From assembly GCA_903862935.1 (NCBI GenBank), contig CAIOZY010000015.1, positions 1-64,000 of the forward strand: a stretch of 64,000 nucleotides of DNA. The letters are read 5' to 3'. Both the position numbers and the translations under genes were made by a program. How positions within the stretch are numbered: position 1 is the first letter of the stretch; the number at the start of each line of letters is the position of its first letter. Origin of the DNA: an uncultured Opitutaceae bacterium. Lineage in GTDB: Bacteria; Verrucomicrobiota; Verrucomicrobiia; Opitutales; Opitutaceae. Below the pieces are notes generated by a model that searched no databases, had not been told where the DNA came from, and saw only the letters and a program-made list of their open reading frames with translations. Positions 26,036-47,480 of the stretch are shown piece after piece.

Positions 26036-28276
26036 CTACGGCCCTATGAACAGGTAGTCTGTATTGCCGACATAGGGTGTTAGCTGGTTGGGATCGATGA
26101 TGATGTCCGAGTAGAGGAAGTAGGTGCTGCAGGTGGTGAAGTCGTACGGGGTGCCGTTCGCGTAGGTCCCGGTCATGATCGACCGGCGCAGGGCCGCTAG
26201 GCGGGTCTTCTGGTCGGCGGAAAGGCTGTGATAAACCTGGGCGAACGTGGTCGCGTACGCGCAGTTGTCCTCACCGTCGAGGTCCCCGTAGGTCCCCGAT
26301 AGAGCGAGGAGCTGGGCTCGGACCGAGGCGCTGTTGGCCGTCGAGACGAGAAGCCCGCGCAGGAGCGCGGCAATCTGTGTGCGGACCTGGACGATGTTCG
26401 TCGCTCCGGCGTACAGGTTATTCCTCTGTGTTTCGACCAGCGCATTGAACTGGGCTGCCTGGGCGGCCGTGACGTATCCCTTGGAGCTGTCCGAGAGAGC
26501 GGCCCCCGCGGTGGCGGTGAGCTGCTCGGAGATGCTGTAGCCGGGCACGTTCACCGCCGGCGCATCCTTGATGTAGAATCCCCCGTAGTAGGTTCCGTGC
26601 CGCTCGGGGCAGAAGTACACATCCGAGTCCAGCGACCCCGCGTACCAGCTGAAGATGTCCCCGGCGTAGGTCATGACAGCGACGACGACACCGTTGGGCA
26701 ACCCCCGCATCCTCGCGGTGATCGAGGTGAGCTGGGCGGCCGAAAGGACGGGCCACCCCGCCGAGCCGCTCCGCGTGTTCTTCATGGCGTCGAGGTAGGC
26801 AAGCTGGGTAGTGCCCGGGTCGCTGTTGCAGGGAGTGCCGTTCGCCATCGAGCCGTAGATCGAGGCGTAAAGAATAGCCCGGTCGAATGCGATCTGGCCG
26901 TCCGTCACATAGAGCGCCCGCGATGCTTTCTTCACGGAGTCCACGTTCAAGCCCGCCGAGCCCGACGGGAGGTCGCCGTCGAGCAGGCGCCGAAACGCCT
27001 TCATCAGGGCGTACCGCCCGTAGCCGTAGGAGCTGATGTCGGCCTGCTGCGCGGTCCCGAGGGCGATCAGCTGGGCGAGCTGCGTGTCGTTCAGGATGTA
27101 CAGGACGTTGTTGGCAACATTCGTCATGAAGTCGGTGTTGTGCCCCTGGTTCGCCGGGTCGTTGTCCCGCAGGTACTGGAACCCGGTATAGTCGGCCACC
27201 TTGCCCGGGGGGAAGAACGACTGGGCCTGCAGGTTGCCGGTCATCAGGGCGAGCCCCGAGAAGGCCAGGGTCGTCCGCTGGGCCTCATCCGAGAGGGTCT
27301 GCGCCATGGAGAAGGGGGCCGTGCTGCCGGCGGCGTAGAGTTCGACCAGGGCCGTCCCCGTGGCGGATCCGGAGCCGCTCACGGAAGCTGTGTAGGACCC
27401 CGCCGGGAGGTCGACCAGGATCGCGGCGTCGCGGCTGCCGGCCGAGAGGGAGAAGGCCCCGACTGCCGCCGCGGTTGAGGCAATGTCAGCCGCATTCGCC
27501 GCATCCGACCAGTTGTCGTTGGTCGCCAGGGCGGTTGTTCCGCTGTAGAGCGTGATCACCGGGTCTGCGAGGGCGCCTGAGACGCCGTAGTTTCCCAGTG
27601 TGGGCCCGACCGCCCGCACCAGCATGCGCAGGGTTCCGGGCCCTCCGACGACAAATCCCGGAACTAGCACGGAGCCGCTGGTGCCGACGAAGGCGCGCAC
27701 GGAGGCGTTGGCGATCGGCGCCGCGTTCGAGTTGGATACGTCGTAGAGCTCGAGCAGGGCGACGCCTGTCCCACCGTCGGACGCGGAGACGGGGGCCGTG
27801 TAGGCGCCGGGGGAGAGCGTCGCGACAATCGCGGCGTCGCGGCTGCCAGCGGTGAACGGGAAGGCGAAGGCCGCGCCCATCGCGGAGGAGTCCTTGGCGA
27901 GCCAGTTGTCGTTGCTCGCGACCTGGGTTGTGCCGAAAAGCAGTGAGAGAGCCGGATCGGCGAGTGCGTTGGCGACCCCGAAAGCCCCGAGAGCCGGACC
28001 CGCGGCCCGGAGTAACACCGGCTTGGAGCCGCTCCCCCCGATCACAAATCCGGCGACCGGCGTTCCGGCGCCACCCCCCACCTGGGCGCGGGCGGAGACA
28101 TTGAGAAGCCATGCCGACTCGCCTGCGCCAGCCGGAGCGGCAGTCGCAGCCAGCAGGGCCACTGCAAATCCGACAGAGCCAAGTCTGCGCCGGACCCCGG
28201 AGCTGGGCGAGACGCGGAAGGCAAGGGCGCCCGCACGCGGTTGGAATGCTAGTCCTGTGCGCAAACTGTCTTTCAT
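26036..28276 (-). CDS. Secreted protein with two verrucomicrobial tail-type repeats and an unknown C-terminal domain
   Basis: 746 residues. A long signal sequence has its hydrophobic core at about residues 36-50 (GFAVALLAATAAPAGAG). Two tandem copies of the roughly 130-residue module 'NVSARAQVG...VAGFVIGG...VLLRAAGPALGAFGV' follow, ending near residue 320. The remaining 420 residues show no recognised family. They contain LQAQSFFPPGKVADYTGFQYLRD, four Cys (CNSDPG, FCPERHG, DNCAYA, TTCSTY) and LSADQKTRLAALRRSIMTG. Unlike the other three proteins of this type, the repeat module is N-terminal here. It is divergently transcribed from the OmpR-type regulator with a matching promoter motif, so it probably belongs to that regulon. 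Confidence 0.7.
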   Translation of the reverse strand: MKDSLRTGLAFQPRAGALAFRVSPSSGVRRRLGSVGFAVALLAATAAPAGAGESAWLLNVSARAQVGGGAGTPVAGFVIGGSGSKPVLLRAAGPALGAFGVANALADPALSLLFGTTQVASNDNWLAKDSSAMGAAFAFPFTAGSRDAAIVATLSPGAYTAPVSASDGGTGVALLELYDVSNSNAAPIANASVRAFVGTSGSVLVPGFVVGGPGTLRMLVRAVGPTLGNYGVSGALADPVITLYSGTTALATNDNWSDAANAADIASTAAAVGAFSLSAGSRDAAILVDLPAGSYTASVSGSGSATGTALVELYAAGSTAPFSMAQTLSDEAQRTTLAFSGLALMTGNLQAQSFFPPGKVADYTGFQYLRDNDPANQGHNTDFMTNVANNVLYILNDTQLAQLIALGTAQQADISSYGYGRYALMKAFRRLLDGDLPSGSAGLNVDSVKKASRALYVTDGQIAFDRAILYASIYGSMANGTPCNSDPGTTQLAYLDAMKNTRSGSAGWPVLSAAQLTSITARMRGLPNGVVVAVMTYAGDIFSWYAGSLDSDVYFCPERHGTYYGGFYIKDAPAVNVPGYSISEQLTATAGAALSDSSKGYVTAAQAAQFNALVETQRNNLYAGATNIVQVRTQIAALLRGLLVSTANSASVRAQLLALSGTYGDLDGEDNCAYATTFAQVYHSLSADQKTRLAALRRSIMTGTYANGTPYDFTTCSTYFLYSDIIIDPNQLTPYVGNTDYLFIGP

Positions 28277-28282
28277 GGCGCG

Positions 28283-28316
28283 AGTCTACGCCCGGGACCC
28301 TTAAGGAGGCGTGAAG
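28283..28316 (-). promoter_or_regulatory. Response-regulator-type promoter of the 26036-28276 gene
   Basis: On the minus strand: CTTCA (28316-28312), then CTTAA 11 bp on (28305-28301), then 12 bases, then the -10-like TAGACT (28288-28283), then six bases and the ATG. Half sites 11 bp apart directly upstream of the -10 are the normal target of OmpR/PhoB-type dimers. The same layout occurs at 28341-28374 and 36357-36390. Confidence 0.6.
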
Positions 28317-28340
28317 CCCGGAAAAATTTTCGGCTGCTGC

Positions 28341-28374
28341 CTTAATCTCCGCTTAAGGCGGCTTGTGCGAGACT
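28341..28374 (+). promoter_or_regulatory. Response-regulator-type promoter of the two-component operon (autoregulation)
   Basis: CTTAA (28341-28345), CTTAA 11 bp on (28352-28356), 12 bases, then GAGACT (28369-28374), about 40 bases before the regulator ATG. The two CTTAA sites also sit inside a 7-bp inverted repeat, GCCTTAA/TTAAGGC (28339-28345 and 28353-28359). The arrangement mirrors the divergent promoter 25-60 bases away. Confidence 0.6.
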
Positions 28375-28415
28375 GCCCGACCAGCCAGACTCCACAGAGC
28401 CTCCCGAGCCCGAAC

Positions 28416-29066
28416 ATGAAGATCCTGATTGTCGAAGACGAGCCCGACCTGCTTGCCGGGCTGGCCCGCGGCCTCAGGGAAGAGGAGTACGCCGTGGACA
28501 CCGCGGCGGATGGCGAGGAGGGGCTCTACAAGGCCTCGAACTCCGACTACGACGCGATTGTCCTCGACGTGCTGCTCCCGCGCCTTGACGGCTGGATGGT
28601 CCTTGAGCGCCTCCGGGAGAAGAAGAAGACGCCGGTGCTCATGCTCACCGCCCGCGACGCCGCGCGCGACCGGGTCCGGGGCCTCGATGCCGGAGCAGAC
28701 GACTACATGGCCAAGCCGTTCGACTTCGGGGAGCTGCTTGCGCGCCTGCGGGCGCTCATCCGCCGGTCGGCGGGTCTCACGCGAAACCGGATTCTCCTGG
28801 GCGCGGTTGCGATCGACACGGCGTCGCGGCAGGTGACCCGCGGCGGCGAGCCGGTGCCGCTGACCGCACGCGAGTATGCGCTGGTTGAGTTCCTTGCGCT
28901 CCATCGGGGGGAGGTCGTCACCCGGTCCGACCTCTACGAGCACCTGTTCGATGAGAACGACAGCACCCTGTCGAACCTGCTCGATGTGCATGTCTCCAAC
29001 ATCCGCAAGAAGCTGGGAGCCGACTTCATCGTCACCCGGCGAGGTTTCGGCTACTGCATAGAATGA
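28416..29066 (+). CDS. OmpR-family response regulator
   Basis: 216 residues from the ATG at 28416; the frame is open upstream through the promoter region. The receiver domain has phospho-acceptor D51 (AIVLDVLLPRLDG), acidic pocket E7-D8, switch Thr in VLMLTARD and Lys in DDYMAKPFD. The winged-helix domain starts near residue 125 and ends HVSNIRKKLGADFIVTRRGFGYCIE. It resembles CusR/QseB-type regulators more than NtrC types. The histidine kinase gene overlaps its stop by four bases. Two OmpR-type sites flank the promoter region upstream. Confidence 0.93.
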   Translation: MKILIVEDEPDLLAGLARGLREEEYAVDTAADGEEGLYKASNSDYDAIVLDVLLPRLDGWMVLERLREKKKTPVLMLTARDAARDRVRGLDAGADDYMAKPFDFGELLARLRALIRRSAGLTRNRILLGAVAIDTASRQVTRGGEPVPLTAREYALVEFLALHRGEVVTRSDLYEHLFDENDSTLSNLLDVHVSNIRKKLGADFIVTRRGFGYCIE

Positions 29067-30592
29067 AATTTTTACAATCGATCCGCTGGCGCCTGCAACT
29101 GTGGCATGGCCTGCTCCTCGGGCTTGTCCTTGCCGGCTTCGGCTTCACCGGCTGGCGGCTGGAGTGGGCAAACCGGCTGCGCGCCGTGGACCAGGCCCTT
29201 GACGAGCGGATCTCGGTTGTGGCCGGCGTCCTGCCCCACGGTCCCTCCGGAGGGGAGCAGCCCCGCGAGGGCCGCCGCAATCCGGACCGGCCTCCGCCGC
29301 GTCAGGATATCCAAGAGGATTCGCCCCCGCAGGACGGTCCCCCGCAGGACCAGCCGGAGATGGGCGAGCGGCCGGCGGAGCGCAAGATCGTTCTTTCGGC
29401 GCACGATTCGGGCTTCTTCGATGGGACTTCAGGAGGGGCCTATTACTACACGGTGTGGCTTCCCGGCGAGCGGTTGCTGTCCCGGTCGGATTGGGCCCCG
29501 GCCGCGGTTCCCCTCCCCGGGCGCGAAGCGGGCCCCCGCGGCTCGCGGGTCAGGGGAACCGTGCGGGAGTCCTACCACTTCACCCCGCAGGGTTTCTGCG
29601 TGCTGGTCGGCCGGGACATTTCTGAAGAGCTGGCCGGCATGAGGCGTCTGGGCCTGCTTTTTGCGGGGGCGGGAGGGGCCGTCTTCCTCCTGGGCCTGGC
29701 GGGAGGCTGGTGGATATCGATGCGCGCCCTCCGCCCGATCGGCGAAATCAGCGCGACAGCGTCCAAGATCGCGCACGGGGACCTCGCCCAGCGCATTCCT
29801 ACGGCGGGTGCCGGGTCTGAGCTTCGCGAGCTGGCGGGGGTCCTCAACGAGACCTTCACCCGCCTCCAGGCTGCATTCGCCCGGCAGGCGCAGTTCACGG
29901 CCGATGCGGCCCATGAGCTCCGCACGCCCGTGTCGGTCGTCCTCACCGAGACCCAAACGGTGCTCGCGCGAGAGCGTAGCGCCGCCGAGTACCGGGCAAG
30001 CCTTGAGGCCTGCCAGCGCTCCGCTCAGCGCATGCGTCGGCTGACGGAGAACCTCCTGGCGCTGGCCCGGCTGGACTCCGGCGAAGCCGCCGCAAGCCGC
30101 GACTCCTGTGACCTGGCCGAAATTGTGGGGGGGGTTGTGGATATGCTCCGCCCCTTGGCTGCGGAGAGGCAGCTGTCCTTCGATTTGGGGCTCCAGGCGG
30201 TCTCCTGCAAGGGCAGCGCCGAGCAGCTCGGACGGGCGGTCACGAACCTCGTCACCAACGCGATCCACTACAACCGCTCCGGCGGAAGCGTGCGGGTCAC
30301 CCTGGAGGCGCGCCCCGGCTCAGCGGTACTCTCGGTCGCCGACACGGGCCAGGGAATCGCCCCCGAGGACATCCCCCATGTTTTCGAACGGTTCTACCGC
30401 GCGGACAGGGCCCGTTCGAACCCAAGCGGCCGAACCGGGCTCGGGCTCGCCATAACCAAGGCCATAGTCGAGGCCCACGGGGGCACGATCGGCGTCGTGA
30501 GCGAGCCAGGGGCAGGGAGCACGTTCACCGTATGCCTCCCGCTCGATCCCCAGGGGCAGGACACAGGGGCTGCTGCCCCTACCGGATCCTGA
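29063..30592 (+). CDS. Membrane sensor histidine kinase with Pro/Asp/Gln-rich sensor domain
   Basis: 509 residues. TM1 (LWHGLLLGLVLAGFGF) lies near residues 15-30 and TM2 (LLFAGAGGAVFLLGLAGGWW) near 197-216. The periplasmic part between them includes a low-complexity tract at about residues 60-110, rich in Pro, Asp, Gln and Glu. After TM2 come HAMP, the phospho-acceptor H284 in AHELRTPVSVVL, N-box NLVTNAIHYN, G1 VADTGQGI and G2 GRTGLGLAI. It is the partner of the overlapping OmpR regulator. The last 14 bases overlap, in antisense, the end of the cytochrome c gene. The tract could be an extended linker or a cation-binding sensor; that is inference. Confidence 0.92.
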   Translation: MKFLQSIRWRLQLWHGLLLGLVLAGFGFTGWRLEWANRLRAVDQALDERISVVAGVLPHGPSGGEQPREGRRNPDRPPPRQDIQEDSPPQDGPPQDQPEMGERPAERKIVLSAHDSGFFDGTSGGAYYYTVWLPGERLLSRSDWAPAAVPLPGREAGPRGSRVRGTVRESYHFTPQGFCVLVGRDISEELAGMRRLGLLFAGAGGAVFLLGLAGGWWISMRALRPIGEISATASKIAHGDLAQRIPTAGAGSELRELAGVLNETFTRLQAAFARQAQFTADAAHELRTPVSVVLTETQTVLARERSAAEYRASLEACQRSAQRMRRLTENLLALARLDSGEAAASRDSCDLAEIVGGVVDMLRPLAAERQLSFDLGLQAVSCKGSAEQLGRAVTNLVTNAIHYNRSGGSVRVTLEARPGSAVLSVADTGQGIAPEDIPHVFERFYRADRARSNPSGRTGLGLAITKAIVEAHGGTIGVVSEPGAGSTFTVCLPLDPQGQDTGAAAPTGS

Positions 30593-31184
30593 GCAGTTCC
30601 TCCGCCGTCCACTCCCGGTGGCCAACCACCCGGGCGCGGACCCGCGCGACAGCCTCAGGGGTGACCGGCGCGGCCTCGTTGCTCCAAGCCGCCCGAATGT
30701 AGGTGAGCACATCGGCAATCCTCTGGTCGCTCCAGTCAAAGCCGGGCCGGCCGAATGCAGGCATGGACCGGTCCCCGGGGTAGAAGACCGCGCTCACGCT
30801 GACCGGTCCCCTCAGTCCGCAGAGGAGGATCCGGATCAGCCGGTCCTCGCGGCCATTGACCCACTCCGAACCGGCAAGGGGCGGAATCTTTCCCGAAATT
30901 CCCTTACCGTCGGACGGGTGGCAGGTAAAGCAACCGCTCTGGGGAATGCGAAAGTCGCGGGCCCCAGGCCGGGAAAGGTCATAGGTCCGCGGGAAGGAGA
31001 CCGGCGTCGCCTCAGCCACCCGCGGCGGCCGGGGCGCTGCGGCCTCGGGCCGGGGAATCGTGCACGCCGGCAACACGAGCCCGCCGGCAATTCCAAGACA
31101 GAGGAGCAGGGACACGGCCCTCACCGATCGCTCCGCAGGCCGGCGGCGGCGCGGCTGAGAAAAGGGCTGCTTCTCGGGCTTCAC
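30579..31184 (-). CDS. Lipoprotein mono-heme cytochrome c
   Basis: 201 residues. A basic N-region (RRRR) is followed by the hydrophobic LLLCLGIAGGLVLPAC with a lipobox Cys at 41 (LPAC), so the protein is probably anchored to a membrane by lipid. The single heme site is CFTCH (C85, C88, H89), and the axial Met is likely that in RSMPAFGRPG. Between them PPLAGSEWVNG is typical of class I cytochromes of the PQQ-dehydrogenase/oxidase type. It ends the minus-strand operon of two metallophosphoesterases (nine bases after their last stop). An electron carrier in such an operon is unexpected. Confidence 0.88.
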   Translation of the reverse strand: MKPEKQPFSQPRRRRPAERSVRAVSLLLCLGIAGGLVLPACTIPRPEAAAPRPPRVAEATPVSFPRTYDLSRPGARDFRIPQSGCFTCHPSDGKGISGKIPPLAGSEWVNGREDRLIRILLCGLRGPVSVSAVFYPGDRSMPAFGRPGFDWSDQRIADVLTYIRAAWSNEAAPVTPEAVARVRARVVGHREWTAEELLRIR

Positions 31185-31193
31185 GGGCAGGGC

Positions 31194-33755
31194 TCAGGGC
31201 ACCTCGTAAGCATCGACAAGGACGGATCCCGCAGCACCGCTGGCGCTTGCGGCGACCGCGGTGTACGACCCGGGCGGGAGGGTCACCAGGATCGCGCAGT
31301 CGCGGCTTTGCAGGGGGTTGGGCTGGGCCCCGACCGCGCTCATCGCAGCCGAAAGCTGCGGGTCGCTGCCCCACCCGGCGTTTGAGGCGATCGCAGAGGC
31401 CCCGCTGTTCAAGGTGAGCACCGGGTCGGGCATCGCCCCGGCCACCCCGTAGGCGGCGAGACCCGGGCCCACCGCGCGGATCAGCACCGTCCGGGAGGTC
31501 GCGCCGCCAATGTAGAATCCATTCGTCAGGCTCCCGTTCGCCGGAACCGCTATCCGGCAGGACAGGTTCATGAGCCGCGGGGTCGCCAGGGTGTAAGCCC
31601 CCGCGGCGGTGTCATCGTAAACCTCGGCCAGCGTCCGGCCCGAGTCCCCCGAGCTGCCGTCGACGTGAACGGTATATCCCGGGCTTGCCCCAAGCGAGAG
31701 GACGCCGGCCGAGTCCAGGCTCGAGGGGTCGGTGTAGACTAGGCCCGCCCCGCTGTTGGCCTGGGCCACACTGACCAGGGCCGTGTTTCCGGCCGGCGTT
31801 CCCCACCCTGCGTTGGCGGCGATCTGGACTCCCTGGGCGCTGAAAACCCTGAATTCCGGGTCCGGCAGGACTCCGGCCACCCCGTAGGAGGCCAGCGCCG
31901 GACCCGACGCCCGGATCAGCAGCCTTTGGGAGCCCGCCGTGCCGGCGCCCCCGGTCACAAAGCCCATGATCAGCTCCGAGCTGACGACCGCGTTGACCGA
32001 CAGGTTCACCATCCGGCCCGGGTTGCCGCTTGGTGTCACGCTCAAGGTTGCCGCCTGGCTGGTCATTGATCCGGCCGGGTTCGTGACGACGCATTGGTAG
32101 TTTCCCGCGTTGGCTGCGGAGACCCCGGAAAGAACCAACGAAGGCCCTGTTGCCCCGGAAACGCCCGCTCCATTCAACAAAGGGGTTCCCTGGAAGAGCC
32201 ACTGGTAGACCAGGCCCGAGCCCGAGGCCTGTGTGCCGAGAACAACCGTTCCCCCGGAGACCGTCTGCGACACAGGCCCGGCCGTGATCACCGGGGCCGT
32301 GCCGGAGGCAACGGAGATGGTGTAGTTGTACATGACCGCGCCGTTCGGGACCCCGGCGCTCGGGTCGGCCGGCGCCCCAGCCCGGACATACGACACGGTC
32401 ACCTGGGCAGGGGAAACCCGGACCCTGAGGTGGCCGGAGCTGGGGTACATGACGCCGGAGAGGTAGCCGTAGGGAAATGCGGAGTTTGTGCTCTGGTTGC
32501 TCCGGCTCGGCTGCGGCACCTCCTGGTAGATCAGCCCCGCCGCCCCGGCCCCGGTGGCGAGGCTCTGCCTCACATAGAGGTGGTCGTGCCCGTGGAAGAC
32601 CGCCGTGACGCCGTGGGCGAGTAGCAGGTCCTGGATCGGCATCGCCCAGCCGGGGCGCTGCGCCGCGAAGCCGGGCGTGTCGTCGATGTTGCTGCCCCCC
32701 CACTCGTAATAGGGCGCGACCTCGGCACCGCCCCGCGCCTGGCCGTCGAGGCTGCCCCCGACCAGGTGGTGGATGAACACGAACTTGAAGGTTGCCTTGC
32801 TCTGCTCGAGGGTCGCCTTGAGCCAGTCGTACTGCGCCCTGCCGAGGGTCCACGACCACGGGTCCTTGGAGTGCGCCGTGGTCTGGCAGGTGTACCAGAA
32901 CGGGTCGAGCGCGATGAACAGGGCGTCACCCCACTGGAACGCGTAGTAGGCGTCCCTCGGCGCCCCGGTGTAGGGATCGGCAGCCGTGGCCCCGGAGTAG
33001 AAGGCCCCCGCCACGGGGCACGGGAAGTACAGCTGCCGCGCCTGGACGCCCCAGGTCGCCACGTTGGCGTGGGGCTGCGCGGCGCTCAGCAGCCAGCCGA
33101 GCTCGGGATCGTGGTTTCCGCTCACGAGGAAAAGCGGCACGGATTGCCCGATCTGGGCGAAGAACTGGGAGCGCACGGTCCTGTGGCTCAGCACGACCTG
33201 GTCGCTGGTCGTCGCCCCGAACTTCTCGTCCATGAAGGTGTCGCCGATGTCCACGAGGAAGTCGGGCTTGTCCGCCAGGATGTTCGCAAGCGTCTGGTCC
33301 CAGACCGGCGGCTCGTCATCCTGGTAGTGGGGGTCGGCCTCGATCGCGAAGATGAAGGTCCTGCCCGAGGCCCGCTGTGTGACGAAACCCGCCTCCGGGG
33401 CCGCCGCGAACGAGGACGTCCCCGGGTCCCGATAACGGATGCGGTAGACGTAGGCGCTGTCCGCCTGAAGGGAGTCGAGCGTCACGACGGAGGGGGCCCC
33501 CGCCGCAAGGGTCGTGACCGGGCTCGAACCGGGATAGACGCCCGTCTGCGTGCCGTAATCGACGACGATCTCCAGGCCTTGGGTCGCCAGCACGCTGAGT
33601 GCCACCGAGTGATCCGTGGGCCGGCCGAGAAGGACGTCGAAGGGCAGCGACCCGGAGCTCTGGGCCAAGAGTCCGGCCGGAATGCAGGCGAGGATGACCA
33701 GTCCGAGGATGGGCCTGATCCCGGGGAAGGCGGCGGTCACAAAAGCGCTGGGCAT
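31194..33755 (-). CDS. Secreted calcineurin-like metallophosphoesterase, Ig domain and repeat tail (copy 2)
   Basis: 853 residues. The signal peptide is LGLVILACIPAGLLAQ. A fibronectin-like N-terminal domain runs to about residue 125, as in purple acid phosphatases. The metal-binding phosphoesterase motifs are EADPHY, VDIGDTFMD, SGNHDPE, FVFIHHLVGG and VFHGHDHLYVRQ. An Ig-like domain (SGGTVVLGTQASGSGLVYQW) starts near residue 490. Two tandem tail modules end in EVP. Substrates are likely phosphomonoesters or diesters outside the cell or in the periplasm. It is the second gene of the operon starting at 36305, 18 bases after the first copy. The tail is nearly the same as in copy 1, while the catalytic part is much more diverged. 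Confidence 0.85.
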   Translation of the reverse strand: MPSAFVTAAFPGIRPILGLVILACIPAGLLAQSSGSLPFDVLLGRPTDHSVALSVLATQGLEIVVDYGTQTGVYPGSSPVTTLAAGAPSVVTLDSLQADSAYVYRIRYRDPGTSSFAAAPEAGFVTQRASGRTFIFAIEADPHYQDDEPPVWDQTLANILADKPDFLVDIGDTFMDEKFGATTSDQVVLSHRTVRSQFFAQIGQSVPLFLVSGNHDPELGWLLSAAQPHANVATWGVQARQLYFPCPVAGAFYSGATAADPYTGAPRDAYYAFQWGDALFIALDPFWYTCQTTAHSKDPWSWTLGRAQYDWLKATLEQSKATFKFVFIHHLVGGSLDGQARGGAEVAPYYEWGGSNIDDTPGFAAQRPGWAMPIQDLLLAHGVTAVFHGHDHLYVRQSLATGAGAAGLIYQEVPQPSRSNQSTNSAFPYGYLSGVMYPSSGHLRVRVSPAQVTVSYVRAGAPADPSAGVPNGAVMYNYTISVASGTAPVITAGPVSQTVSGGTVVLGTQASGSGLVYQWLFQGTPLLNGAGVSGATGPSLVLSGVSAANAGNYQCVVTNPAGSMTSQAATLSVTPSGNPGRMVNLSVNAVVSSELIMGFVTGGAGTAGSQRLLIRASGPALASYGVAGVLPDPEFRVFSAQGVQIAANAGWGTPAGNTALVSVAQANSGAGLVYTDPSSLDSAGVLSLGASPGYTVHVDGSSGDSGRTLAEVYDDTAAGAYTLATPRLMNLSCRIAVPANGSLTNGFYIGGATSRTVLIRAVGPGLAAYGVAGAMPDPVLTLNSGASAIASNAGWGSDPQLSAAMSAVGAQPNPLQSRDCAILVTLPPGSYTAVAASASGAAGSVLVDAYEVP

Positions 33756-33773
33756 GGGGTCATCGGGCGCGGC

Positions 33774-36305
33774 TCAGGGCACCTCGTAGATATCGAGCAG
33801 CACGCCTCCGGCCGCCCCGCCGGCGCTGGCCGCGACTGCGGTGTACGAGCCTGGTGTTAACGTGATCAGTAAGGCCGAGTCCCCTGCTTGGAGGGGATTG
33901 GGCAGGGCTCCGACCGCGGCCATCGCGGCCGCAATCTGGGGATCCGCGCCCCAGCCGGCATTTGAGGCTATCGCAGTCGAGCCGTTGTTGAGCGTGAGGA
34001 CCGGGTCGGGCATCGGCCCAGTCACCCCGTAGGCCGCAAGCCCCGGGCCCACCGCCCGGACGAGCACCGTCTTAGAGGTCGATCCTCCGATATAGAAGCC
34101 GTTCGTCAGGCCGCCGCCGGCGGGCACCTGAATCCGGCAGGACAGGTTCACCAGGCGCGGGGTGGAGGGCGTGTAGGCGTTGGCAGGGGTGTCGTCGTAG
34201 ACCTCCGCGAGGGTCCGGCCCGAGTCGCCGGAGCGGCCGTCGACGTGGACGGTGTAGCCCGGGCTTGCGGGCAGCGAGAGGACGGCCGCCGAGTCCAGGC
34301 TTGAGGCGTTGCCGAAGACCAGCCCCGCCCCGGTGTTGGACTGGGCCAGGCTTACGCTCGCCGGGTTCCCGGCGGGGCTTCCCCAGCCTGCGTTCGAGGC
34401 GATCTGGACTCCCTGGGGGCTGAACACCTTGAATTCCGGGTCCGGGAGGACCCCGGTGACGCCGTAGGGGACAAGCGCCGGGCCCGCCGCCCGGATCAGC
34501 AGGGTCTGGGATCCCGCGGTTCCGGCCCCGCCGGTCACAAACCCCATGATGAGCTCCGAGGCCACGACGGCGTTGACCGAGAGGTTCACCAGCCGACCCG
34601 GGTTACCGGAGGGGGCCACGGTCAGGGTCGCCGCCTGGCTAGTCACGGATCCGGCCGAATTGGTGGCGATGCACTGGTAGCTTCCCGCGCTGGCACCGGA
34701 GACCCCTGAGAGGACCAGGTTTGGCCCCGTCGCCCCGGAGACGGCGGGACCGTTCGACAGGGCGCCGCCCTGGAAGAGCCACTGGTAGGACAGGCCGGAG
34801 CCCGAGGCCTGCGTCCGAAACACCGCGGTCCCCCCGGAGACCGCCTGGGAGACAGGCTCTGCCGTGATGAGCGGGGCGGTACCCTGGCCTGTCATCGTTC
34901 CGATCGTGTAGCTGTAGGCTACTGAACCGGAGACCTTGCCCGGGCCCTCGTCGGCCGGCAGGTAGGTGCGGACATAGTCCACCTTGACCCCGGTCGGGCT
35001 GACCGTCACCCGGGCGTACCCGGTTGCGGGAATCACGACGCCCGAAGTGTAGGCGTCCGCGTTGTACAGGCCGTAGTTGGGGTCCGCCGCATAGGGCACC
35101 TCCTGGTACGTCACCCCGTCGAGCTTCTGGTAGGCAAAGCAGTGGTCGTGCCCCTGGAAGAAGATGGTCACCCCGTACTTGACGAACATCTGGTGGATCG
35201 GCAGGTCCCATCCCGGGCGCTTCTGGGCGAAGAGGTTGGCGCCCGACCCCTTGTCGGTCCCGCCCCACTCGTAAAGGGTGGCGTTCTCGATCCCCCCCCT
35301 GAAGGTCCCGAGCACATGGTGCGCGAACACGAACTTGAACCTGGCCGTGCTCTGCCGGAGAGTCTGCTCAAGCCAGGCGTACTGGGCTGTGCCCAGGGTG
35401 ATGACCCAAGGGTCGGTCAAGACGTGGGTCTGCCCCCCGAGGAGGCTGTCGACGCACTGGGGGGAACTCCAGTAGAAGTCGATGTCGACAAAGAGGGCAT
35501 CGCCCCAGGTCCAGGCATAGTAGTTTCGCAGGAGTCCGATGTAGTCCACGGGCACCGCGTTCCCGGAATAGAACGAGTCGGGAGCGGGTTCGGAGTAATA
35601 GAGGTTCCGCGCTGTCTGGGCCCAGACGGCGACGTTGTTCGACGTCCCGTCGAGCAAATACTGGGCCGCCTGCTCGTGGTTGCCGTTTGTGAGAAACAAG
35701 GGGGCCGAGGGGGCGATCAGGTTGAAGTAGGGAAGCTGCAGGGTGTAGCGGCCCCCCACGGTCGCCGCGGAGTAGGTCGACAGCGTGTCCACGCTGAAGT
35801 CGTCCCCCGAGCAGATGAAGAAGTCGGGCTTGTCCGCAGCGGCTGTCGTCAGAGTGCGGGTGTACAGGGCCGAGTTGAACGCCGTCTTGTCCCGCTCCGG
35901 ATGGGAGTCGCCCTGGAGGCAGAAGGTGAACGTGCTTCCCGGAGGCCTCTGGGTCATGAAGGCGTACTCCGGGGTCGCTGCGTAAGTCGATAACCCCAAG
36001 GGGGCGAAGCGCAGGCGGTAGTAGTAGCGCGTGTTCGGCTTGAGCGGGGTCAGGGTGAACTCAAACGGCAAATTCGCCGCGAGTGACTGCGGGGTGGTCT
36101 GGACCGGGTAAGCCCCCGTCTGGGTGCCGTACTCGATGTAGGCCGTCCCGCCGGCCGGCGACATCACGTTGGCAACGATCGACGTGTCCTCGGGCCGGCC
36201 CAGAATGATGGTGCCCGCAAACTGGGCGCAGAGCGACTGCACCGAAAAACCCAAGACGCACAGGGCGAGCAGAATGCGTGGATCCTGGGTAAACTTCATG
36301 GGCAA
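33774..36305 (-). CDS. Secreted calcineurin-like metallophosphoesterase, Ig domain and repeat tail (copy 1)
   Basis: 843 residues with the same domain order as the following gene: signal peptide (LLALCVLGFSVQSLCAQ), fibronectin-like domain, and phosphoesterase with QGDSHPERD, ICSGDDFSVD, TNGNHEQA, FVFAHHVLG and FFQGHDHCFAYQ. An Ig-like domain and two tail modules follow, ending in EVP. In the first motif DSH replaces the usual DxH pair arrangement but keeps Asp and His. It is the first gene of a three-gene minus-strand operon, transcribed from a promoter at 36357-36390 that shares its architecture with the two-component promoter. No phosphate-transport genes are present nearby. Confidence 0.85.
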   Translation of the reverse strand: MPMKFTQDPRILLALCVLGFSVQSLCAQFAGTIILGRPEDTSIVANVMSPAGGTAYIEYGTQTGAYPVQTTPQSLAANLPFEFTLTPLKPNTRYYYRLRFAPLGLSTYAATPEYAFMTQRPPGSTFTFCLQGDSHPERDKTAFNSALYTRTLTTAAADKPDFFICSGDDFSVDTLSTYSAATVGGRYTLQLPYFNLIAPSAPLFLTNGNHEQAAQYLLDGTSNNVAVWAQTARNLYYSEPAPDSFYSGNAVPVDYIGLLRNYYAWTWGDALFVDIDFYWSSPQCVDSLLGGQTHVLTDPWVITLGTAQYAWLEQTLRQSTARFKFVFAHHVLGTFRGGIENATLYEWGGTDKGSGANLFAQKRPGWDLPIHQMFVKYGVTIFFQGHDHCFAYQKLDGVTYQEVPYAADPNYGLYNADAYTSGVVIPATGYARVTVSPTGVKVDYVRTYLPADEGPGKVSGSVAYSYTIGTMTGQGTAPLITAEPVSQAVSGGTAVFRTQASGSGLSYQWLFQGGALSNGPAVSGATGPNLVLSGVSGASAGSYQCIATNSAGSVTSQAATLTVAPSGNPGRLVNLSVNAVVASELIMGFVTGGAGTAGSQTLLIRAAGPALVPYGVTGVLPDPEFKVFSPQGVQIASNAGWGSPAGNPASVSLAQSNTGAGLVFGNASSLDSAAVLSLPASPGYTVHVDGRSGDSGRTLAEVYDDTPANAYTPSTPRLVNLSCRIQVPAGGGLTNGFYIGGSTSKTVLVRAVGPGLAAYGVTGPMPDPVLTLNNGSTAIASNAGWGADPQIAAAMAAVGALPNPLQAGDSALLITLTPGSYTAVAASAGGAAGGVLLDIYEVP

Positions 36306-36356
36306 CGTATCAGGTCGGGGTGTGATGTGGGCTCCTGCCGGCGAGTGCCAACGTCC

Positions 36357-36390
36357 ACCCTATCCGAGGGAACCTTAATCCTAGGTTAAG
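36357..36390 (-). promoter_or_regulatory. Response-regulator-type promoter of the phosphoesterase operon
   Basis: On the minus strand: CTTAA (36390-36386), ATTAA 11 bp on (36379-36375), 12 bases, then TAGGGT (36362-36357), about 50 bases before the ATG at 36305. Half-site spacing and the 12-base distance to the -10-like hexamer equal those of the two promoters between 28283 and 28374. Confidence 0.55.
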
Positions 36391-36581
36391 AAGTCCGGGC
36401 GCTGGGCACTTCCCGATCCTGGAGCCACGATCTGTGATCTGCTGGCGGGTAGGCTGAAATTGGATTCGCTGTCGACAGAGCCTTTGTCTCCAAGAGGAGG
36501 AGCTACTCTCGAAGTGACCCGAGGAAAGCGCTTTCAACTAGAAAGCAAAAAGACCGAGATCTCGCCATCACGGCCTGATCT

Positions 36582-36863: not shown

Positions 36864-39116
36864 TCACGGCACATCATAGACTTCTACTAGGACAATTCCT
36901 GTCGCCCCGCTTACGCCATTCACCTGGGCTGTGTATGCGCCCGGCGGCAGGGTAATAACCATGGCACAATCGTTTGACCCGGCTGGCAGCGAAAAGGCGT
37001 AGACTTTTGACATTAAGCCCGGCGTTGCCACCAGGGGATAAGACTGCACCGGGGATGAACCCGCGGATGGGCTGTTACTCCAGCCAACATTGGTGGCGAT
37101 TATCTTGCCGTCGCTATCAAAGAGGGTGAGTTGGGGCGCCACCAGCGCTCCGAGAATCCCGTATTGAGCGAGCGTGGGACCCACTGCCCTGATGAGCAGG
37201 GTTTCCGATGAGTTGCCTCCGACGACAAACCCCGCCACCACGACTTGGGATCCAGGGCCGGAGAAGGCCCGGGCTGACAAGTTTACCACGCGAGCCGGCG
37301 CGCTTCCGGAATCAAGGTCGTAGAGTTCAGCCAATGCAACCCCGACCGTATTCCCGACCCCGCTCACCTGGGCGGTGTACGAAGCTGAGGGCAGGGACGC
37401 CACCATCGAACTGTCGGGGGACCCGGTCGGCAACGGGAACGCCTGAACCTGGGTGAACACGGACGATGATGCTGCGGAAATCGTCGCCGAAGTGGAGGAC
37501 GACCCGATAACGGGAGAATTTCCCCAGCCAACATCAGTCGCAATTGTTGCCGCAGCCCCGTCAAAAAGCGTCAACTGGGGCGCAGCAAGTGTCCCGGCGA
37601 CCGAGTACTGGCCTAATGTCGGGCCCACAGCTCGAATCAACAGCTGTTTGGGATTCGGGCCACTGGCGGAGAAACCGGCCACGAGGTTCTGCGAGCCCGG
37701 GCCAACGTAGCTGCGCGCTGACAGGTTCATGAGGCGGGCATCGACAGAGACGCTAATCGTGGCCGGAACGGAAATACCGCTGGTTGGCCCCGTGGTTATC
37801 AGGAGCCGGTATTGGCCAGCCTGAGCAGTGCCAATGTTTGGCAATTGTAGCGTCGGGGTGGTCGCGCCCGCGATAGGGGTTCCGTTAAAGGACCATTGAT
37901 AGGTCAGCCCCGGCACCGATACCCCCACGCTGAGCAGGCCCGTTGACCCAGCCGGTACAGTTTGGGCCCCTGGGGAATAAGTGATCAACGGAAGCGTGTA
38001 GGCGTAGATCGTCGCGTTCATCCCGCCGTAGAGGACGCCGTTACTGCCGATGGAAAGGGGGCTGTAACTACTGCTGAACACATAGAGCGACGAGAAATTC
38101 GCCCCGGCTTTGTTAAGGACAAACATCCTTGCGGCGTTCGGTACGGCGCCCCGGCTGCCCGGCACCAATTCCGTTGTGCCGTACAGCTGCCCGTCAACGC
38201 CTTCGATCAGATAAATCGGCCAGCCGCCATCAGCGCCGTTCGTGAAGTCGTGGAGCGTTAAGAACTCGGAACTGTTCAAATTTGCCTTGAAGACCGTCCC
38301 ATAACCATAGGCCCCGCCCCCCTGCGTCACCCCGTAGAGCCGCCCGTCGCATCCCTGGAGGAGGGAGGCCGCCTCACAGCTGAAGAGCGGGGTGAAACCA
38401 GTCCCGTCAGGATTGATCGCAAAGACAACGGGCGCGGTAAGGGGAAAACCGGCATAGCCGACCGTTCCGTAAAGCCGTCCGTCGGCGCCCTGGAGGAAAA
38501 TATAAGGGTTTGGGTAGACCGTCGCAGCCGATGAAGCGCTGTAGAGCGGCACAAAGGCGCTGCCGTCGGAATTAATCGCAAAGAGCGTCCATGAGTTGCT
38601 GGCTGTCAGGGCCTCCGCACCGAAAATTCTGCCGTCCTTGGACTGAACCAGCCCCTCAACAGTGCCACCATCCAAGAAGGTGTGAAGCGTGGCAAAGCCG
38701 GTTCCGTCAGGATTGATTGCGAAGATCGTCGCAAAGAAGCTCCCGTTCGCCGCGGTGGAGCCATAACCGTACAGGCGCCCGTCAGCCCCCTGAAACAGCG
38801 ACTTGGCGTCGTAGACGTAGGGAAAACTGTGCAGGACGACGAACCCGGTGCCGTCAGCGTTCACGGCGAAGACCATGGCCATGTTTTGTGACCCGCCGGC
38901 AGGGGACGCCCCATAGAGCCGGCCATCATTCCCTTGAAATACCGAGGTAACGACAACCCCGCTAGTGTTGCCGTTCGGATAGGCGTAAAGGGTGCTTAGG
39001 GATTGCCCTATGCTGCGCGCAGGCAGACTCATCAAGAGAGTCGATGCAAAGGGGATCAACCAGCGACCGAGAGCACCCAATAACTTTGATTGACGCGCCG
39101 TTATCCATGGCCTCAT
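36864..39116 (-). CDS. Secreted Gloeo/Verruco-repeat beta-propeller protein with Ig domain and repeat tail
   Basis: 750 residues. The signal peptide is LIPFASTLLMSLPARSIGQ. About eight beta-propeller repeats follow, of the form F.G.DGRLYG......G...FA.N.DGTGF..LH.F, the Gloeo_Verruco repeat, up to about residue 370. An Ig-like domain (GLTYQWSFNGTPIAGAT) and two tail modules related to those of the phosphoesterases come next, ending in VYDVP. No catalytic motif is present. It is likely surface-exposed and ligand-binding. The gene is visibly less GC-rich than its neighbours. It is bracketed by repeat copies B and C in the same orientation, suggesting arrival or mobility as a unit. Confidence 0.82.
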   Translation of the reverse strand: MRPWITARQSKLLGALGRWLIPFASTLLMSLPARSIGQSLSTLYAYPNGNTSGVVVTSVFQGNDGRLYGASPAGGSQNMAMVFAVNADGTGFVVLHSFPYVYDAKSLFQGADGRLYGYGSTAANGSFFATIFAINPDGTGFATLHTFLDGGTVEGLVQSKDGRIFGAEALTASNSWTLFAINSDGSAFVPLYSASSAATVYPNPYIFLQGADGRLYGTVGYAGFPLTAPVVFAINPDGTGFTPLFSCEAASLLQGCDGRLYGVTQGGGAYGYGTVFKANLNSSEFLTLHDFTNGADGGWPIYLIEGVDGQLYGTTELVPGSRGAVPNAARMFVLNKAGANFSSLYVFSSSYSPLSIGSNGVLYGGMNATIYAYTLPLITYSPGAQTVPAGSTGLLSVGVSVPGLTYQWSFNGTPIAGATTPTLQLPNIGTAQAGQYRLLITTGPTSGISVPATISVSVDARLMNLSARSYVGPGSQNLVAGFSASGPNPKQLLIRAVGPTLGQYSVAGTLAAPQLTLFDGAAATIATDVGWGNSPVIGSSSTSATISAASSSVFTQVQAFPLPTGSPDSSMVASLPSASYTAQVSGVGNTVGVALAELYDLDSGSAPARVVNLSARAFSGPGSQVVVAGFVVGGNSSETLLIRAVGPTLAQYGILGALVAPQLTLFDSDGKIIATNVGWSNSPSAGSSPVQSYPLVATPGLMSKVYAFSLPAGSNDCAMVITLPPGAYTAQVNGVSGATGIVLVEVYDVP

Positions 39117-46010: not shown

Positions 46011-46667
46011 TCACTTCGGCTCAGGAGGAGGGGGAGGCGGCTCGGCCATCCTCTGGATCATCGGGACGAGCCGGCTCAGGGTGACGCTTGGAGGCGGGGA
46101 GCTGTCGATAAGCTGCAAGAACTTGTCCCTGCGTGTTTTGAGAAGAACTTGAACCTTCTGCCTCTGGGCGTCATCGAGCTTGTAAACCCGGGTCAGCACA
46201 TCCAGGCGAAGCGGGATCACGACATCCCAAAGGACAGTTCGGGCCGGCTGGTCTCTGAGCATGAACCCGAGCTGGTCGTCGGACAGGGGCTTTTTTCCCT
46301 CTTTGGGCTCCGGGCGTTCCTCGCGGGCCCTGCGGTTCGCAAAGTCGGCCCGCTTGGCTCTCTGCTCGGGGGTCAGAATCTGCTCGAGCTGCTTGTCGAA
46401 CTCGGCGTCGATTTCACCCATCTTGGTGCGGAACACCTCAAGCTGCGGCCTGAGCTGCTCCACCTTGGCGATCAGTTCGGCGCGGCTGAGCGGCCGCTCG
46501 CGGCGTGCCTCCCCCATCATGCCGGGGGGATGCTGGTGGGAGAACTCAGCCCCGAAGCCTCCCGGGGGCGGCGGCAGCGGGCGGTGCCGGTCGGTCCACA
46601 CCCGGGTCCAGAAGCCGGCCGCGAAGACGAGCGCGGTCACCAACGCTACGAGGAGTGTCTTTTTCAT
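46011..46667 (-). CDS. Membrane-anchored periplasmic sensor protein, CnrX/Spy-like
   Basis: 218 residues. It has one N-terminal membrane helix (LLVALVTALVFAAGFW). A Pro/Gly-rich linker holds H44, H46, M50 and M51 (FSHQHPPGMM), followed by long amphipathic helices (ELIAKVEQLRPQLEVFRTKMGEI and FDKQLEQILTPEQRAKRADF) with an LTPEQR block as in the Spy/CnrX/ZraP helical family. The C terminus is proline-rich. In CnrX-type systems such a protein binds metal and releases an ECF sigma factor through a small membrane anti-sigma protein. The same order of genes is present here, so this is a proposed sensor. The metal is unknown. Confidence 0.6.
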   Translation of the reverse strand: MKKTLLVALVTALVFAAGFWTRVWTDRHRPLPPPPGGFGAEFSHQHPPGMMGEARRERPLSRAELIAKVEQLRPQLEVFRTKMGEIDAEFDKQLEQILTPEQRAKRADFANRRAREERPEPKEGKKPLSDDQLGFMLRDQPARTVLWDVVIPLRLDVLTRVYKLDDAQRQKVQVLLKTRRDKFLQLIDSSPPPSVTLSRLVPMIQRMAEPPPPPPEPK

Positions 46668-46942
46668 TGGGCTAGGCTTGAGTCATCAACCGCCGAGGCG
46701 ACCTGGTTCCAGTCGGCGAGGCTGTTCAGGTCCTGGGCGCTTGTATCGTGGGAGTGGTAGATCGCGATCGCCAGGAAGCACAGGGCCGCGGTGGCGGCGC
46801 TCAGGGCGAGCTGGCCGAAAAGCGACGGGGAGCGGTCGGGGCGCTGGCGGGACGCGCGCAGGACCCGTTCGGCAAAATCCCCCGGGAGCCGGGCGTCGGC
46901 CCGGTCGCAGAGCTCCTGCCAGGCTTTGTTTTCAGGATTCAT
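46664..46942 (-). CDS. Small single-pass membrane protein, probable anti-sigma factor
   Basis: 92 residues from ATG 46942; earlier codons belong to the sigma factor overlap. The N-terminal cytoplasmic part (about 40 residues) includes an acidic/basic helix FAERVLRASRQRPDR. One membrane helix lies at about 42-61 (FGQLALSAATAALCFLAIAI). The periplasmic tail is Asp-rich. Size, topology and position between an ECF sigma factor gene (11-base overlap) and the sensor gene (4-base overlap) match anti-sigma proteins such as CnrY. Sequence similarity is not claimed. Confidence 0.6.
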   Translation of the reverse strand: MNPENKAWQELCDRADARLPGDFAERVLRASRQRPDRSPSLFGQLALSAATAALCFLAIAIYHSHDTSAQDLNSLADWNQVASAVDDSSLAQ

Positions 46943-47480
46943 ATTGGGGTTGGTAATGCTCTCTGAGCTGCTCGCGGGCACGGTGCAATCGGGCCTTTAC
47001 GGCGGCAACGCTGGACTTGAGGGTCTGGGCGATCTCGGCGTGGCTGCGCCCCTCCTGGACGAGGGCGATCAGTGCCCGGTCCTTCGGCCGAAGCTTCGCC
47101 AGGGCGTGCCGGAGGGCGTCCAATTCCTCGGTCCCGACCGCGCCGGGCGGCTCGGGCACGTCCTCGTGCTCGGGGCCGAACGGGACGAAGATTCGGCGCA
47201 GCTTCTGGCGCCGGAGGTGATCGATGCAGGTGTTGCGCGCCAGGCGGAAGAGCCATGACTCGAACTGGGCGGGGGCCTGGAGACTGTCGAGGGCGCGGAT
47301 CATCTTGATGAAGACCGTCTGGGCGATGTCCTCGATCGCGTCGCTGCGGCCGGTGATGGCATAGACAAACCCGGCGATCCGCCGTTGGTAGCTGAGGATG
47401 AGCTCGCGCTGCGCGGACTCCTCCCCGCGCTGCGCGCGCCGGACGAGGTCGACCAGTTCGGTCGTTGGGTCGGGATCCAT
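46932..47480 (-). CDS. RNA polymerase sigma factor, ECF subfamily
   Basis: 182 residues from ATG 47480; upstream codons in frame look non-coding. Region 2 spans ELVDLVRRAQRGEESAQRELILSY through FIKMIRALDSLQAPAQFESWLFRLARNTCIDHLRRQK, the ECF sigma-2 core. Region 4 is ALAKLRPKDRALIALVQEGRSHAEIAQTLKSSVAAVKARLHRAREQLREH. It recruits RNA polymerase to its own promoter set. It begins an operon with the proposed anti-sigma and sensor genes, then the NtrC-type activator. It is divergent from the lipoprotein gene at 47624. Confidence 0.93.
   Translation of the reverse strand: MDPDPTTELVDLVRRAQRGEESAQRELILSYQRRIAGFVYAITGRSDAIEDIAQTVFIKMIRALDSLQAPAQFESWLFRLARNTCIDHLRRQKLRRIFVPFGPEHEDVPEPPGAVGTEELDALRHALAKLRPKDRALIALVQEGRSHAEIAQTLKSSVAAVKARLHRAREQLREHYQPQYES

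Follow-up and report, generated by a model that had tools for sequence, protein, structure and literature searches.

The stretch of DNA analyzed here (64,000 nucleotides, hereafter the window), from an uncultured Opitutaceae bacterium (assembly GCA_903862935.1, contig CAIOZY010000015.1), encodes an OmpR/PhoB-family two-component system that probably activates its own promoter and two neighboring promoters through a common DNA element, hereafter the box. In all three promoters, two five-base half-sites are repeated directly with a step of 11 bp and are followed, after a gap of 12 bases, by a −10-like hexamer. The promoter of a secreted-protein gene reads CTTCA-N6-CTTAA-N12-TAGACT on the minus strand (28316–28283). 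The regulator promoter on the plus strand (28341–28374) is composed of CTTAA (28341–28345), CTTAA (28352–28356), and GAGACT (28369–28374), and the promoter of an operon of two metallophosphoesterases (MPEs) and a cytochrome c reads CTTAA-N6-ATTAA-N12-TAGGGT on the minus strand (36390–36357). Such tandem half-sites, approximately 11 bp apart and adjoining the −10, are the arrangement of OmpR/PhoB-type regulators. The common layout had been proposed in a first-pass annotation made from the letters alone, and every site was found at the same coordinates with the same letters. Its −10-like hexamers also stand where it placed them, but GAGACT at 28369–28374 does not conform to TANNNT. The −10 of the secreted-protein gene (28283–28288) ends 6 bases upstream of the ATG, and this distance suggests that its mRNA may be leaderless or nearly so; a comparably short distance of 9 bases to an ATG was seen at the orthologous locus L059.

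The degenerate pattern of the full layout given in the first-pass annotation was searched against the whole genome of this bacterium (3,345,969 bases in 62 contigs, 95.55% complete), which returned three exact matches, all inside the window. The same pattern gave no match in 100 dinucleotide shuffles of the window, as compared with three in the real one. Allowing one mismatch added two matches in the genome, one of which overlapped the 28341 site, and a reversed control pattern of the full layout gave 2 + 2 matches. For the half-sites alone (CTTAA-N6-CTTAA with up to one mismatch), 21 rows were obtained (10 forward and 11 reverse, some being double readings of one site) versus 25 + 25 for the reversed control. 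Perfect copies occur only at 28341 and at C41:31582, the latter scoring 15.4 bits with the relatives' matrix described below. These counts indicate that the half-sites alone are common in this genome, whereas the full layout is rare. Since the degenerate pattern was derived from the window's own three sites, the matrix is a stronger test.

This matrix was built from 19 relatives' sites with the window left out. The training sites scored 24.0–38.7 bits, and the three sites in the window scored 26.3, 25.8, and 24.1 bits; the next site in the window reached 7.7 bits, and the best background score was 16.4 bits in 400 kb (20 stretches of 20 kb from nine relatives). The first half-site is mostly CTTCA in the relatives, with CTTCA or ATTCA in 13 of 19. 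A dyad search without any seed was also performed on the intergenic gaps of 36 loci (47,783 bases), again leaving the window out. The dyads were ranked against shuffles; a ranking by raw counts had put GC-rich words on top. All of the 15 best dyads were pieces of the box motif, of which 13 lay above and two were tied with the null maxima (6.6–7.4 in the five replicates listed).

A covariance model of the box recovered two of the window sites when applied to the own genome at E ≤ 10 (E = 0.15 and 0.66). It gave matches at E ≤ 1 in 15 of the 16 family genomes that possess the system, and 21 of the 24 matches in those 16 genomes were located at or within approximately 10 kb of the regulator or kinase ortholog, the other three lying elsewhere. 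Among 25 of the 42 family genomes lacking a kinase match better than 1e-75, two (G026 and G018) gave a single weak match each. The contrast between 15/16 and 2/25 is not an independent one, since 11 of the 16 genomes supplied training sites, two of these having G017 and G051 as near relatives, and the held-out loci described below weigh more for the same reason. For the larger genomes, covariance scoring covered 150 first-look candidates. One match was located within a uvrA-like gene of G012 and was taken as chance.

The regulator gene (28416–29066, plus strand) encodes 216 residues comprising Response_reg and Trans_reg_C domains, with a PmrA-like recognition helix SNLLDVHVSN. It is followed by a gene for a sensor histidine kinase of 509 residues (29063–30592, plus strand) with HAMP, HisKA, and HATPase_c domains, whose region N-terminal to HAMP gave no recognized domain in the domain search. 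A receiver joined to a winged-helix effector, with a HAMP/HisKA/HATPase kinase adjacent, is the composition of an OmpR/PhoB two-component system. The regulator scored 210.9 bits against the heavy-metal regulator model TIGR01387 (cutoff 279.2), 210.6 bits against the NCBIfam equivalog model of PmrA (cutoff 330), and 156.3 bits against the PhoB model TIGR02154 (cutoff 296.2), while the kinase scored 277.1 bits against the heavy-metal sensor kinase model TIGR01386 (cutoff 292.55). With these cutoffs missed, plain membership of the PmrA or CusR group is not claimed. In the phylogenetic tree, 29 regulator orthologs were joined (92/92), and a paralog of the own genome (L153) adjoins them. The main MacAB branch contains nine rows (97/96); one MacAB row (L268) and the window regulator stand outside of it. 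The nearest rows to the window regulator by path are L182, L183, L184, L062, and L060, its exact branch not being fixed.

Both the box and the recognition helix are, to judge from their letters, of the PmrA type. PmrA (BasR) belongs to the same OmpR/PhoB family, and the entries 8jo2 and 4s04 are solved relatives of the window regulator. The consensus given for PmrA in PMC10729948 is (C/T)TTAA(G/T)-N5-(C/T)TTAA(G/T), to which the 28341 site, CTTAAT-CTCCG-CTTAAG, fits letter for letter, whereas the other two sites of the window deviate from it. The PmrA half-sites given in PMC3973317 are CTTAAT and CCTAAG, arranged head to tail. In the PmrA–DNA structure described in PMC4660055, Asn188 and Asn196 recognize bases, Thr187, Val192, and His195 also contact bases, and Arg210 enters the minor groove. 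Four of these six residues are identical in the window regulator (Asn188, Val192, Asn196, and Arg210), and the other two are replaced (Thr187 to Ser and His195 to Ser). Asn188, Val192, and Arg210 are invariant in all 19 orthologs, the window included, while position 196 is occupied by Asn in 15, Lys in three, and His in one. The window system differs from PmrA in the missed equivalog cutoff and in the first half-site of the relatives. Genes for lipid A or lipopolysaccharide modification of the PmrA type were not recognized among the box-bearing genes read, the own genome not having been searched for them.

Relatives of the kinase were sought in 61 family genomes, of which 19, including the own genome, gave a match better than 1e-75 and 42 did not; 20 neighborhoods were fetched. 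Of 14 orthologous loci, 13 had the box at the regulator and/or a neighboring operon. It is found at the regulator and a divergently oriented diheme DHOR gene in L057 and L062, at the regulator and an AcrB-type RND pump in L058, and upstream of TolC in TolC-MacAB operons that also contain the regulator–kinase pair in L063, L065, L066, L068, and L076. In L060, it stands at the regulator and upstream of YHYH-PEBP and MPE genes, and in L070 at the regulator, MPE1, and a YHYH gene; L059, L069, and L075 carry it at the regulator and/or the neighboring operon. Excluded from this count were L061 (a near copy of L060), L067 (congeneric with L064 and lacking a box), L071 (a contig starting within the operon), L073 (no readable regulator), and L072 and L074. 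The last two are held-out loci, with boxes of 30.0 and 29.8 bits, respectively, upstream of a diheme gene of the MauG type, which is itself followed by the regulator–kinase pair.

Regulator orthologs at E ≤ 1e-75 were detected in 36 of 288 genomes of the phylum, which yielded 29 loci besides the window (four from training genomes and 25 held-out), with six further genomes giving no locus. In 15 of the 25 held-out orthologs, a box scoring 19 bits or more was located near the regulator. Six of these were obtained in a first pass as having such a box within approximately 1.5 kb (G272 being counted once, among these six). When the reading was extended to longer stretches for 18 of the remaining 19, such a box was found in nine, upstream of MacAB-type operons in eight of them.

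A search for MPE relatives gave 13 loci, of which two repeat L060/L061, eight come from other Verrucomicrobia (L141–L148), and three from other phyla. This regulator is beside the MPE cluster in none of the eight (0/8), but boxes of 21–36 bits were found in five, upstream of a secreted-protein-type (SEC) gene, a YHYH gene, or another gene of the MPE cluster or adjoining it. There was no box in L144, L146, and L148 or in the three loci of other phyla. Six of the genomes of these loci were searched, and three of the six have a 70–72% identical regulator elsewhere, with boxes adjoining it. The numbers of model matches in G332 to G337 were 6, 2, 4, 0, 6, and 0, and the regulator was present, absent, present, absent, present, and absent, so that box and ortholog agree in five of the six. 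The box thus accompanies target genes even where the regulator is not adjacent. Two contigs labeled Dehalococcoidia (L149 and L150) contained MPE relatives, three of them in a row in L150.

From this comparative evidence, the small self-regulating OmpR-type regulon proposed in the first-pass annotation appears supported, as a box of the same spacing adjoins the orthologous regulators. The kinase (29063) would sense a periplasmic stress and phosphorylate the regulator (28416), a dimer of which would bind head to tail to the two half-sites 11 bp apart. These half-sites overlap the −35 position, 12 bases upstream of the −10, where the bound dimer could recruit RNA polymerase to three promoters, those of the regulator–kinase pair, of the secreted-protein gene divergent from it, and of the operon formed by MPE1, MPE2, and cytochrome c. 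We infer activation rather than repression. The first-pass annotation knew of no described system combining these parts; this no longer holds for the box and helix, which resemble PmrA, but for the target set, the domain of the secreted protein, and the combination of the parts, no description was found in the open-access literature.

Several observations weigh against this regulon or its reading as a metal-responsive one. The regulator's own promoter has a poor −10, the PmrA and heavy-metal regulator and kinase models all remained under their cutoffs, and the training sites of the matrix were initially selected by the window's own pattern. In the own genome, the covariance model gave weak E-values and did not report the third window site at E ≤ 10. 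In the family, L064 lacks a good box (none above 16.8 bits); 10 of the 25 held-out orthologs showed no box in the stretch seen, which for G282 had short flanks only; and G333 is an exception in having boxes without a close regulator ortholog. As to the signal, the copper genes come from relatives, the own genome not having been searched for such genes, and in many relatives the partners of the system are MacAB pumps instead.

The three sites might be real and yet be bound by another OmpR-type regulator, of which the own genome has at least eight. This is highly unlikely, since the box co-occurs with the present ortholog group and, among the eight others read, no regulator combines Asn at PmrA position 188 with Asn at 196 (a ninth, weaker OmpR-type match lies outside these eight). 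That the boxes are AT-rich promoter words resembling one another by chance against a GC-rich background is barely credible. The five-base half-site is short and the initial pattern had these very sites as its source, but the leave-window-out matrix, the seedless dyads, the conserved 11-bp and 12-base spacing, and the held-out loci contradict it, and chance origin was rejected together with the rarity in the genome and the shuffles. A phosphate-starvation regulon of the PhoB type, to which the two secreted MPEs in one operon would fit, is likewise very improbable: the regulator scores approximately 54 bits lower with the PhoB model than with the heavy-metal and PmrA models, no classical Pho genes were recognized among the box-bearing genes read, and the PhoB assignment was rejected on its model score.

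For the signal, copper or a similar metal is our first choice and a fairly probable one. The box-bearing genes of the relatives encode MacAB or RND pumps, or else a secretome with YHYH, MPE, and MbnP/MbnH-type genes. In G332 (L280, the same locus as L184 of the tree), whose regulator is 72% identical to that of the window, a pair of boxes lies between the regulator–kinase pair and three genes that run divergently from it. One of their products is a multicopper oxidase, which exceeds its Pfam cutoff and has CueO as the best NCBIfam model (294.5 of 525 bits); another is a CusB/HlyD-type adaptor containing a heavy-metal binding domain; and another is a pump of the CusA/CzcA family, scoring 1088.6 bits with TIGR00914 against a cutoff of 701.45. 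Also in G332, a second box is upstream of two YHYH genes followed by an MbnP + MbnH-type gene, and a third is upstream of a receiver-like gene and a weakly Spy-like gene. The box pair at the multicopper oxidase-CusB-CusA operon of this close relative raised our estimate for copper from an even balance. Metal-efflux or copper-oxidase targets were found there and none was seen in the window, the own genome not having been searched. The alternative is that the same circuit responds to cationic peptides, antibiotics, or general envelope damage in a PmrAB/MacAB-like manner, the phosphoesterases then remodeling the cell surface. Many orthologs in box-fronted TolC-MFP-MacB-permease operons with the regulator–kinase pair, and the AcrB-type pump of L058, speak for such an envelope signal. 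Nevertheless, it is rather unlikely, because the window regulator stands outside the main MacAB branch and the box at its near-by-path relative in G332 drives copper genes.

Similarity to CusRS/CzcRS/SilRS/CopRS was also considered. Their model is the best one for the window kinase and is level with PmrA for the regulator, both being below cutoff, and the box of G332 stands at Cus-type target genes. The palindrome ATTAC-N6-GTAAT, described as the dyad of the CusR/HprR box in PMC9302797, was absent on reading the two promoter regions of the window.

Other loci with MbnP + MbnH-type genes show the box upstream of a YHYH gene followed by such a gene (L281) or upstream of a lone one, approximately 310 bases away (L282). 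At L278, this gene comes right after the regulator–kinase pair and no box was found there. At L213 and L220, the adjoining boxes point away from the MbnP + MbnH-type genes, and control by them was rejected. A further box (L226) is upstream of a HupE/UreJ-like gene. The Pfam scores of MbnP, MauG-type, and YHYH proteins were above cutoff; the NCBIfam scores of MbnH and MbnP and all Spy/LTXXQ scores were below. PMC3621798, from 2013, calls the role of the MbnP/MbnH pair unclear and states that copper data were then lacking for close homologs. No such pair was found in the window, where the small c-type cytochrome is the partner. Later work is reported to ascribe a direct copper role to MbnP/MbnH. 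YHYH (PF14240) is common to the box-bearing clusters with MPEs in L060, L070, L141, and L147 and was not sought in the own genome; it is predicted to be a metal-dependent hydrolase in phage tails (PMC7824862) and appears in a diatom survey (PMC11992049).

It is conceivable, at somewhat less than even chance, that the box marks a copper-handling secretome with a patchy recurrence among several families of this phylum. Its undescribed parts would be YHYH, the paired secreted MPEs, and a helical domain described below, which would handle copper in the periplasm or at the cell surface together with multicopper oxidases, Cus-type pumps, and proteins of the MbnP/MbnH type, under a PmrA-type or CusR-type system according to lineage. 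This estimate also rose, from a more doubtful one, owing to the box at the copper operon of G332. Should the copper reading be true, it would indicate a role for YHYH, these MPEs, and the new helical domain, for which no role was found described, and an OmpR-type family would have kept a PmrA-like box while its targets switched between efflux pumps and a metal secretome. In any case, the promoter signature picks out co-regulated genes of unknown function, and the regulator–box pair, from a poorly studied phylum, is amenable to direct in vitro testing.

The secreted protein (26036–28276, minus strand; 746 residues) consists of a repeat-type N-terminal half and a C-terminal domain (27310–26039), and no Pfam match was obtained for any part of it at E 0.1. 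The C-terminal domain is, according to its predicted structure (pTM 0.83, mean pLDDT 77.9), an undescribed, mostly helical domain. Its fold was left unnamed, since a PDB fold search with this model gave no match at E ≤ 0.001 and TM-scores were at most 0.20 among the 50 matches listed. By eye, its Leu-Thr-x-x-Gln-like repeats appear in the alignment to resemble Spy/LTXXQ proteins. Relatives of this domain occur in seven of the 288 phylum genomes (own included), in seven families, and also in L142, L143, and L148 from the MPE-relative search. Six of the eight non-own loci from the search of the 288 genomes have an MPE relative, and four of the eight a heavy-metal-type regulator and kinase, within the stretch read. 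These four regulators have a CusR-like helix with Arg at 196, and their systems adjoin MPE/SEC genes in other families; L089, L092, and L093, three of these four loci, contain ATTAC-N6-GTAAT on reading.

MPE1 (33774–36299, minus strand) combines a purple-acid-phosphatase-like N-terminal stretch with an Ig domain, may start at ATG 36299 or TTG 36305, and has relatives in MPE/SEC clusters. A second metallophosphoesterase with an Ig domain, MPE2 (31194–33755, minus strand), follows 18 bases after MPE1. The last gene of the operon encodes the small c-type cytochrome (30579–31184, minus strand), with a GTG start at 31184 or 31115; with the former, the gap to MPE2 is 9 bases, and the gene end is convergent with the kinase gene. 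A 54% identical relative of this cytochrome is encoded behind a YHYH gene in a same-genus genome. A repeat domain is common to the secreted protein, MPE1, and MPE2 (26036–28276 and 31194–36299) and a GloVer-type protein (36864–39116, minus strand), and was found also in L062 and L070.

Two boxes stand at genes of other kinds. In L133:1501 (G051:C1:1366500), a 34.6-bit box lies upstream of a polyferredoxin gene far from the regulator, possibly a distal regulon member, and in L138:1532 (G038:C24:15308), a 30.3-bit box lies upstream of a weakly Spy-like gene in a same-genus genome. Elsewhere in the window (46011–47480, minus strand), an ECF sigma-like gene is accompanied by two small genes, the last of which is His/Pro-rich and by eye resembles a Spy/CnrX-type metal sensor, and a similar trio was observed upstream of a SEC gene in L086.

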